Shown here piece by piece: positions 29,560-30,665 of a stretch of 64,000 bases of DNA. Origin of the DNA: Pseudooceanicola nanhaiensis DSM 18065 (lineage in GTDB: Bacteria; Pseudomonadota; Alphaproteobacteria; Rhodobacterales; Rhodobacteraceae); contig NZ_JHZF01000011.1 of assembly GCF_000688295.1 (NCBI RefSeq), positions 62,001-126,000 on the forward strand, in the 5' to 3' direction. The notes beneath the pieces were generated by a model that was given only the letters and a program-made list of their open reading frames with translations, made no database searches and was not told where the DNA came from. Numbering within the stretch: position 1 is the first letter of the stretch; each line of letters starts with the position of its first letter. The position numbers were made by a program, and so were the translations under genes.

Positions 29560-29604
29560 AAAAGAAAAAACGGCGACGCCAGGGAGGAGGAGAGGCGCCG
29601 CCGT
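29560..29604 (-). terminator. Intrinsic terminator formed by the last CcsR-like hairpin
   Basis: On the minus strand the hairpin with arms at 29594-29604 and 29570-29580 (11 bp, one mismatch) is followed directly by TTTTTTCTTTT. It therefore ends the transcript that starts upstream of the DUF1127 gene, while its loop still shows the CCTCCTCCC motif. Confidence 0.75.
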
Positions 29605-29643
29605 TCATTTCACGACCGCCCAGGGAGGAGGAGAGGGCGACCG
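29570..29643 (-). ncRNA. CcsR-like small RNA unit 6
   Basis: Two hairpins at 29613-29643 (imperfect) and 29570-29604 display CTCTCCTCCTCCCT in the loop. The unit is spaced more closely to unit 5 than the others are to each other, and its second hairpin is the terminator. Confidence 0.75.
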
Positions 29644-29658
29644 ATTGTCTGCAAGTGT

Positions 29659-29733
29659 CCGGCGGTGCCAGGGAGGAGGAGAGGCACCGCCGGTCTTGCA
29701 ATCGCCGGCCCAGGGAGGAGGAGAGGACCGGCG
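29659..29733 (-). ncRNA. CcsR-like small RNA unit 5
   Basis: Hairpins at 29703-29733 (9 bp, one mismatch) and 29659-29693 (11 bp, perfect) flank the constant CTCTCCTCCTCCCT loop. The stem of the second reads CCGGCGGTGCC against GGCACCGCCGG. Confidence 0.8.
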
Positions 29734-29775
29734 AAACTCGTGCGGCATGACCCGGCCGCTCGGGAGGGAAAGCAC

Positions 29776-29850
29776 CCGGCGGCGCCAGGGAGGAGGAGAG
29801 GCGCCGCCGGACTTTCATCCATCGGCCCAGGGAGGAGGAGAGGACCGATG
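29776..29850 (-). ncRNA. CcsR-like small RNA unit 4
   Basis: Hairpins at 29820-29850 (9 bp, one mismatch) and 29776-29810 (11 bp, perfect) carry the constant loop. The link between them reads GATGAAAGT on the minus strand, as in unit 2. Confidence 0.8.
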
Positions 29851-29888
29851 AAACTCTGCGGGGCGTGACCCTGCCCCGGGGATGAGGT

Positions 29889-29962
29889 GCCGACGACGCC
29901 AGGGAGGAGGAGAGGCGTCGTCGGCGATAATCACCGGCCCAGGGAGGAGGAGAGGGCCGGCG
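29889..29962 (-). ncRNA. CcsR-like small RNA unit 3
   Basis: Hairpins at 29932-29962 (9 bp, one mismatch) and 29889-29925 (12 bp, perfect) carry the constant loop. The second stem, GCCGACGACGCC against GGCGTCGTCGGC, differs from the other units on both arms together, showing compensatory change. Confidence 0.8.
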
Positions 29963-30003
29963 AAACTGGTGCGGCCTGACCCGGCCGCCGGGGTCGAAAG
30001 TCT

Positions 30004-30078
30004 CCGGCGGTGCCAGGGAGGAGGAGAGGCACCGCCGGACTTTCATCCGCCGGCCCAGGGAGGAGGAGAGGACCGGCG
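30004..30078 (-). ncRNA. CcsR-like small RNA unit 2
   Basis: Hairpins at 30048-30078 (9 bp, one mismatch) and 30004-30038 (11 bp, perfect) carry the constant loop. The unit is nearly the same as unit 5 in stem sequence, suggesting duplication within the array. Confidence 0.8.
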
Positions 30079-30116
30079 AAACTTCGGAGCATTAACCCCG
30101 CTTCGGGGAGAAGGTT

Positions 30117-30191
30117 GCGGCGACACCAGGGAGGAGGAGAGGTGTCGCCGCGAAGTCACAGATGGCCCAGGGAGGAGGAGAGGGCCATCTG
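30117..30191 (-). ncRNA. CcsR-like small RNA unit 1
   Basis: Hairpins at 30159-30191 (10 bp, perfect) and 30117-30151 (11 bp, perfect; GCGGCGACACC against GGTGTCGCCGC) carry the constant CTCTCCTCCTCCCT loop. It begins 9 nt after the DUF1127 stop, so it must come from the same transcript by processing. CcsR RNAs of R. sphaeroides have the same two-hairpin build with CCUCCUCCC loops and are processed from a stress-induced transcript behind a DUF1127 gene. Confidence 0.82.
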
Positions 30192-30200
30192 ATCCCGTAA

Positions 30201-30419
30201 TCACATCGAGCGGTAAGCCTGCTCGTAGGCGAGCGAACGGATCATGGTCCGGTTCGCGCCGAAGTCGCGCAGTTCACGGTCGGAGAGCATGGAGAGCTCG
30301 GAAACCGTCTTGCGGTAGGCGGCGTAGCGGGTGAAGCGTTCGCCGATGGTATCTGCGAGCCGGGCGAAGAAACCGCGGGTTTCGGTTGCGCCGGCGTGGG
30401 TGTCGGTCATCATGGCCAT
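30201..30419 (-). CDS. ccaF1: DUF1127 small protein (CcaF1-like)
   Basis: This 72-residue basic protein has the DUF1127 segment at its C-terminal half: YRKTVSELSMLSDRELRDFG followed by ANRTMIRS. In R. sphaeroides the DUF1127 protein CcaF1, encoded just upstream of the CcsR RNAs, is an RNA-binding factor affecting their maturation. The same order is seen here: the stop is 9 nt from the first small RNA hairpin. The first ATG (30419) is used; ATGs at 30413 and 30410 are possible. A sigma70-like pair TTGTGC (30516-30511), 16 bp and TAAATT (30494-30489) precedes it on the minus strand, as a tentative promoter; a heat-shock sigma promoter was not recognised. Confidence 0.85.
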   Translation of the reverse strand: MAMMTDTHAGATETRGFFARLADTIGERFTRYAAYRKTVSELSMLSDRELRDFGANRTMIRSLAYEQAYRSM

Positions 30420-30503
30420 TGTCGTCGTGCCTTTCGTCGTCTTGCGATGCCGCGGCGGTCCGTGTCATCGCTTCGTCTGTTGGGTCTAATTTACGCTTAT
30501 GCT

Positions 30504-30546
30504 GCAGCTGCACAATGGCCGCCTTGGCAATGCTGCTATGCAGCAA
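30504..30546. promoter_or_regulatory. Two palindromes in the ccaF1/mrp divergent gap
   Basis: TGCAGCTGCA (30504-30513) and TGCTGC-TAT-GCAGCA (30532-30546) share the TGC/GCA arms and lie 27 bp apart near the tentative ccaF1 promoter. They could be operators, but no regulator is known for them. Confidence 0.3.
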
Positions 30547-30665
30547 GTGCATATGAAATGTTGACCTAACGGTAGTTGAAAACATTGGATTTTTCCGATT
30601 TCGTTCGGAAACCGCCCGGTGTTTGACCACCTGAACCGCAAAACGCCCACTGAGGATGCATGACA

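Follow-up and report, generated by a model that had tools for sequence, protein, structure and literature searches.

A putative ccaF1-CcsR operon with six two-hairpin RNA units in a Pseudooceanicola genome

In a marine bacterium of the genus Pseudooceanicola, the minus strand between positions 29560 and 30419 of a 64,000-nt stretch of DNA (hereafter the window, meaning the whole stretch analysed) carries a DUF1127 gene with six two-hairpin units behind it. Judged from its sequence, the locus is a ccaF1-CcsR operon, that is, the CIN1 locus of the cuckoo RNAs; it confirms a known system and reveals no new one. What is established here comprises the structures, the order of the genes, their linkage across the family, a conserved block upstream of the gene and the pattern of duplication, and the whole reading of the locus as such an operon (one transcript, units cut from it, action through anti-Shine-Dalgarno loops and a multiplied middle) is in our judgement probable. 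An earlier note on this DNA had identified the array as CcsR-type and its neighbour as a DUF1127 gene of the CcaF1 kind, and gene order, loops, covariation and family-wide linkage all agree with that description.

The array lies right behind the gene, as the earlier note had it: both are on the same strand, and 9 nt separate the DUF1127 stop codon from the first stem. A search of the DUF1127 protein against NCBIfam gave no match. In the direction of the minus strand the features are:

30201..30419, minus strand: DUF1127 (CcaF1-like) gene, 72 aa (Pfam PF06568, 1.4e-8, 34.8 bits against a cut-off of 23.3)
30117..30191, minus strand: unit 1, first-type (hairpins 30159-30191 and 30117-30151); its best outside match is the first unit of L023, 91%
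30081..30116, minus strand: linker 1-2, small hairpin without the loop motif, by folding
30003..30080, minus strand: unit 2, middle (hairpins 30046-30080 and 30003-30039)
29964..30002, minus strand: linker 2-3, small hairpin without the loop motif, by folding
29889..29963, minus strand: unit 3, middle, more diverged than the other middle units (hairpins 29931-29963 and 29889-29925)
29853..29888, minus strand: linker 3-4, small hairpin without the loop motif, by folding
29774..29852, minus strand: unit 4, middle (hairpins 29818-29852 and 29774-29812)
29735..29773, minus strand: linker 4-5, small hairpin without the loop motif, by folding
29659..29734, minus strand: unit 5, middle (hairpins 29702-29734 and 29659-29693)
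29644-29658, minus strand: linker 5-6, short
29560..29643, minus strand: unit 6, last-type (hairpins 29613-29643 and 29568-29606); shares 93% identity with the last units of L013 and L020

The units are built around a 14-mer, CTCTCCTCCTCCCT, which occurs 12 times in the window, always on the minus strand and between 29581 and 30182, and not once in 100 dinucleotide shuffles of the window, bearing out the claim of twelve same-loop hairpins in six pairs on that strand. Exact copies number 13 in the whole 4.66-Mb genome, 12 of them within the array. The unpaired loop, 13 nt long (TCTCCTCCTCCCT) and closed by a C-G pair, is identical in all 12 hairpins, and the stem under each copy is unbroken over 9-13 pairs (G-U included). 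With stems taken at their maximal length the units measure 75-79 nt, so that the proposed number of six stands while the proposed size of 74-75 nt has to be corrected. Fold stability of the six units gives z values from -5.1 to -9.2, and for each unit none of 200 shuffles was as stable.

That pairing is kept across diverging stems, another claim of the earlier note, is confirmed by the alignment of the six units, in which 98.4% of the cells are paired and 11 of 21 pairs have changed on both sides with pairing kept, against a mean of 4.3 in shuffles and a maximum of 4 in slid controls. Across the genus, in an alignment that had been fitted to the structure (A2; 111 stretches, 100 distinct, including stand-alone units and two weak matches of model R1), the covariation score reaches 0.672, with 0.216 for shuffles and no more than 0.136 for slid controls. 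The contrast is weaker for pairs changed on both sides in the genus alignment, which number 19 of 21 against 16.1 in shuffles, with 3 of 500 shuffles reaching 19. For the linker hairpins, two of five pairs have changed on both sides in 15 of the 54 long linkers listed in the genus (one sequence class, picked by eye; two of the 54 stretches include a missed hairpin). The final hairpin of the array (29568-29606) runs into a U-run that extends to 29560, and together they form a putative intrinsic terminator; a terminator scan listed none at the array because it counts only loops of 3-8 nt.

Comparison with Rfam places the array close to two known families. In a 4-kb search, every one of the six units was matched by CcsR1 (RF02791), with scores of 47.9-52.8 bits and E values from 2.7e-11 to 7.9e-10, so that the units do score above background with this covariance model, as had been anticipated, but fall short of its gathering score of 65.3 bits, which none of the six reached. 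This cut-off looks strict for this branch, because the array loci of six relatives also lie under it (best 60.0). The second model, ar14 (RF02344; a three-hairpin RNA), overlaps the units on the minus strand below its curated score, the array's best being 57.8 bits, 1.0 short of the gathering score of 58.8; the same cut-off is passed by the array loci of two of six relatives (L101 with 61.0 and L051 with 60.3). At curated cut-offs Rfam has no match anywhere in the window, and an Rfam scan of the stretch upstream of mraZ led to nothing. We class the array by its operon type and do not count it as a curated Rfam match.

Linkage to the DUF1127 gene extends through the family. A DUF1127 homologue lies immediately 5' of the main array in 20 of 20 other genus loci with upstream sequence fetched, and in these 20 the distance from stop codon to first loop core is 21-28 nt. 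The 12-mer CTCCTCCTCCCT that surrounds the CCTCCTCCC cores is identical at 175 of 180 sites of these other main loci of the genus, a count that covers hairpins keeping the CCTCCTCCC core and leaves core-less hairpins out. When named genomes were scanned with the DUF1127 alignment alone, using no RNA, hairpins with the exact motif (1 to 16 of them) were found directly 3' of the gene in 77 of the best 80 loci among at least 384 DUF1127-encoding stretches; ten of these best 80 belong to genomes already in the genus set. Hairpins with a shortened motif lie downstream of the DUF1127 gene in L055 and L113, and L118, one of the same best 80 of at least 384, has no downstream motif hairpins. In L055 (2701-2910, a Planktotalea MAG) and L113 (2701-2910, HTCC2083) the loops have shrunk, at the shortest to TCTCCC or TCCTCCC, and the operon layout is kept.

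The gene is itself preceded by a conserved block of 80 nt that could be aligned in our genome and 20 genus loci, and within which we infer a -35 and a -10 element:

30474..30553, minus strand: upstream block, presumed promoter and activator site
30527-30553, minus strand: element TATGCACTTGCTGCATAGCAGCATTGC
30500-30517, minus strand: element CATTGTGCAGCTGCAGCA
30510-30515, minus strand: candidate -35, TTGTGC
30488-30493, minus strand: candidate -10, TAAATT
30474-30482, minus strand: element CAACAGACG

The core pattern of this block, which had been derived from the genus alignment, stands 5' of 70 of the 80 named DUF1127 loci (the best 80 of at least 384) and was found in none of the mononucleotide shuffles. 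A sigma-70 promoter scan gave nothing. By eye, CTGCATAGCAG is seen within the block (30527-30553), and a TTTTCTGCATAG-bearing stretch precedes the second DUF1127 gene in L118; since TTTTCTGCATAG also stands before that second gene, DUF1127 genes may have a common regulator. The arrangement CTGC-N3-GCAG presumably resembles a PhaR box, and a literature search for the PhaR box returned nothing relevant.

How the array came to have six units can be read from the similarities between them. Units 2 and 5 are 93.9% identical, as near to each other as had been noted before, and units 2, 4 and 5 are 84-94% identical among themselves. The middle units of the window have a mean mutual identity of 0.83, compared with 0.70 to the first unit and 0.72 to the last. 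Across genomes, first units have their best match in a first unit in 86% of 420 comparisons and last units theirs in a last unit in 89% of 420, whereas middle units match a middle unit best in 69% of 1100 comparisons and a last unit in 24%. Position decides the nearest match for first and last units; these keep their identity across species, and the middle units multiply. Homogenisation that makes units cluster by genome was considered and rejected, the nearest neighbour coming from the own genome in only 18 of 97 genus units. The array looks like a first-middle-last form with a multiplied middle, because units 2, 4 and 5 are alike, the two ends match those of other species and the relative G016 (L023), whose DUF1127 protein is the most similar of those aligned (68%), has three units. 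The mutual closeness of the middle units and the three-unit relative thus speak for the growth by duplication that the earlier note had proposed.

The same note had called the array enlarged, which is true only against the four units of R. sphaeroides. Units are present in 22 of 22 genus genomes searched (own included), and among the 21 main arrays compared (own included) nine have 3 units, five have 5, five have 6 (ours among them), one has 7 and one has 8, so that 7 of 21 have at least six; G015 (L029) was excluded because a contig end cuts its array, and two weak R1 matches (L022, on the opposite strand, and L016 at 3144) were left out of the array counts. Six units are an ordinary copy number for the genus. 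Six as an exceptional number was rejected, given 3-8 units in genus arrays and counts of 1-9 in the genomes of the family.

These family counts come from model R1, which at E 1e-4 matches 93 of 120 family genomes (own included) and leaves 27 without a match. The other 92 matching genomes have 1 to 9 matches each (median 3), with six or more in nine of them and 1 to 3 in 57; these counts are genome-wide, not per array, and are lower bounds (strict filters, few candidates per genome). At the level of the class, R1 found matches in 5 of 289 genomes, our own among them; all five belong to the same family, and since the model is narrow and few candidates were scored, this result is no argument against ar14 RNAs elsewhere. 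Among the best 80 of at least 384 named loci, P. nanhaiensis (L051) and an uncultured Pseudoruegeria (L073) have arrays of eight units.

Homologues provide a picture of how the array may be transcribed, processed, induced and targeted. A single transcript would start near 30480, encode the DUF1127 protein and run through the six units to the terminator at 29560. RNase E, aided by the DUF1127 protein, would cut it into units of ~80 nt as in R. sphaeroides, for which co-transcription from an RpoHI/HII promoter and a part for RNase E and CcaF1 in maturation are reported (PMC10253847, PMC7866481, PMC3320616). The two 13-nt anti-Shine-Dalgarno loops of each unit would then pair with GGGAGGAG-like ribosome-binding sites and, under stress, lower the translation of many mRNAs, among which those of uptake and catabolic genes are probably frequent, while tandem duplication of the middle unit would yield more RNA copies per promoter. 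That the array RNAs block the start sites of mRNAs by such pairing is likely by analogy with NfeR1, reported as an ordinary antisense RNA that uses its loops to silence ntrB where translation starts (PMC10746234). The two precedents differ, because NfeR1 is reported to be Hfq-independent and CcsR1-4 Hfq-dependent (PMC10746234, PMC7866481). Also against this picture, DUF1127 proteins are reported to act via proteins in other species, as CcaF1 itself can in A. tumefaciens (PMC12501420).

The loop is the complement of AGGGAGGAGGAGA. Sites with GGGAGGAG and an ATG 3-11 nt behind it number 57 in the own genome against 6 for the backward control, an unsurprising excess, because any Shine-Dalgarno sequence gives one (AAAGGAG upstream of ATG, 79 against 19 in the control). 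For a set of possible targets we started from the 57 matches of GGGAGGAGN{3,11}ATG. Without one within the array and one duplicate, 55 were fetched, and of these the 51 whose frame was 60 codons or longer were scanned, trimmed to about 200 codons. The control set came from AAAGGAGN{3,11}ATG (79 matches, 77 distinct); we fetched 60 of these, picked at random, and scanned 54. Solute-binding proteins make up 6 of the 51 targets and 1 of the 54 controls (Fisher p = 0.056, or 0.15 if the control number is 2; two comparisons), the control listing showing 25 of 58 families and ten target-set proteins having additionally been scanned singly. Neither this difference nor that for AMP-binding enzymes (4 of 51, with none in the control families shown, p = 0.052) is significant, and other transporter parts are not in excess, the permease family PF02653 having 1 in the 51 targets and 2 in the 54 controls. 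The excess of solute-binding proteins is suggestive and no proof; it agrees with the preference for transport mRNAs reported for NfeR1 (PMC10746234, PMC7143759).

A further idea, to which we give a low probability, is that the array is a device tuned by copy number, in which the first and terminator units are fixed and an interior varying by tandem duplication sets the strength of a stress-triggered translation brake. If this is true, a bacterium sets how strong a broad brake on translation is by how many identical anti-Shine-Dalgarno loops each transcript has. The genus, with the same operon, the same loops and 3 to 8 units, is a natural series for testing the effect of small-RNA copy number.

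An unlikely explanation, raised in the earlier note for GGAGG sites or a protein, is that the array works as a sponge, its loops titrating the DUF1127 protein or Hfq, or damping all strong Shine-Dalgarno sites, with the number of units setting its strength. The loops are nearly invariant while the stems drift, the genus shows multiplication of the middle units, with 3 to 8 units per array, and the DUF1127 protein is encoded on the same presumed transcript, all as such a dosage device would have it. But the loops with the same core in S. meliloti are reported to silence particular mRNAs at their translation starts (PMC10746234), and the 57 of 92 other family genomes that manage with 1 to 3 matches argue against it as well: high copy number is not required, because many relatives have three units or fewer.

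Quite improbable is that the array is a 3' untranslated region which stabilises or regulates the DUF1127 mRNA in cis and releases no free small RNAs, even though it begins 9 nt past the stop codon and lies close to the gene in other genus loci. The R. sphaeroides CcsR RNAs are reported as separate RNAs cut free from a precursor (PMC10253847, PMC7866481), a fixed loop would be superfluous for a mere stabiliser, and units stand alone without a DUF1127 gene. One such RNA is in the own genome, on contig C18 (L039 1985-2106, about C18:50943-51064), where ar14 scores 68.9 bits against its cut-off of 58.8 and no DUF1127 homologue was found in the 4 kb fetched. A stretch there, GCGCATAGCTGCATTGC, with two mismatches to the upstream pattern of the window, ends 44 nt before the RNA; taken by itself, the pattern shows no clear enrichment (9 matches, 5 in the control). 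Five other genus genomes add stand-alone units at 9 loci where no DUF1127 homologue lies within about 2 kb.

One genus member, G007 (L030-L034), has a three-unit array plus five single units dispersed to separate places on five contigs. Sequence like that of the array units is present on 5 Salipiger and Alloyangia plasmids, and L244 (plasmid of Salipiger sp. CCB-MM3) and L245 (plasmid of Alloyangia pacifica) have unit-like stretches without an annotated DUF1127 gene.

Inverted repeats can fold on either strand, but we give next to no credence to an active plus strand whose AGGGAGGAGGAGA loops would mimic Shine-Dalgarno sites and titrate ribosomes, since the orientation of the gene, the conserved upstream block and the U-run all suit the minus strand, on which the CcsR1 and ar14 matches also sit.

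The ccaF1-CcsR reading is thus the one that we retain. Most useful in this locus are the expansion of the middle between ends that stay fixed, the linker hairpins and the conserved upstream block, for which we claim no novelty in print; the first-middle-last pattern and the linker hairpins are concrete places to look for processing. Among the closest known systems is the CcaF1-CcsR1-4 operon of R. sphaeroides (RSP_6037), described, like the locus here, as a short DUF1127 gene (71 aa there, 72 here) with a homologous row of RNAs and a terminator. The row has four units there and six here, and the scores here stay under the Rfam cut-off, while two hairpins per unit with CCUCCUCCC loops are common to the Rfam CcsR1 model and the array of the window. 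The cuckoo RNAs (Reinkensmeier and Giegerich 2015; via PMC10253847, PMC4504443) are described with a conserved loop motif and variable stems, as here, and CIN1 is given as the name for the association of such hairpin RNAs with short DUF1127 genes (PMC10253847, PMC4504443); they are said to have 2-4 hairpins per RNA (PMC4504443), whereas twelve stand in one presumed transcript here. In S. meliloti, the loop core of ar14/NfeR1 is the same as here and is reported to serve as an anti-Shine-Dalgarno seed (PMC10746234), and that species is likewise multi-copy, with six NfeR1 copies (PMC7143759), but NfeR1 is a stand-alone three-hairpin RNA, unlike the DUF1127-linked array of the window.
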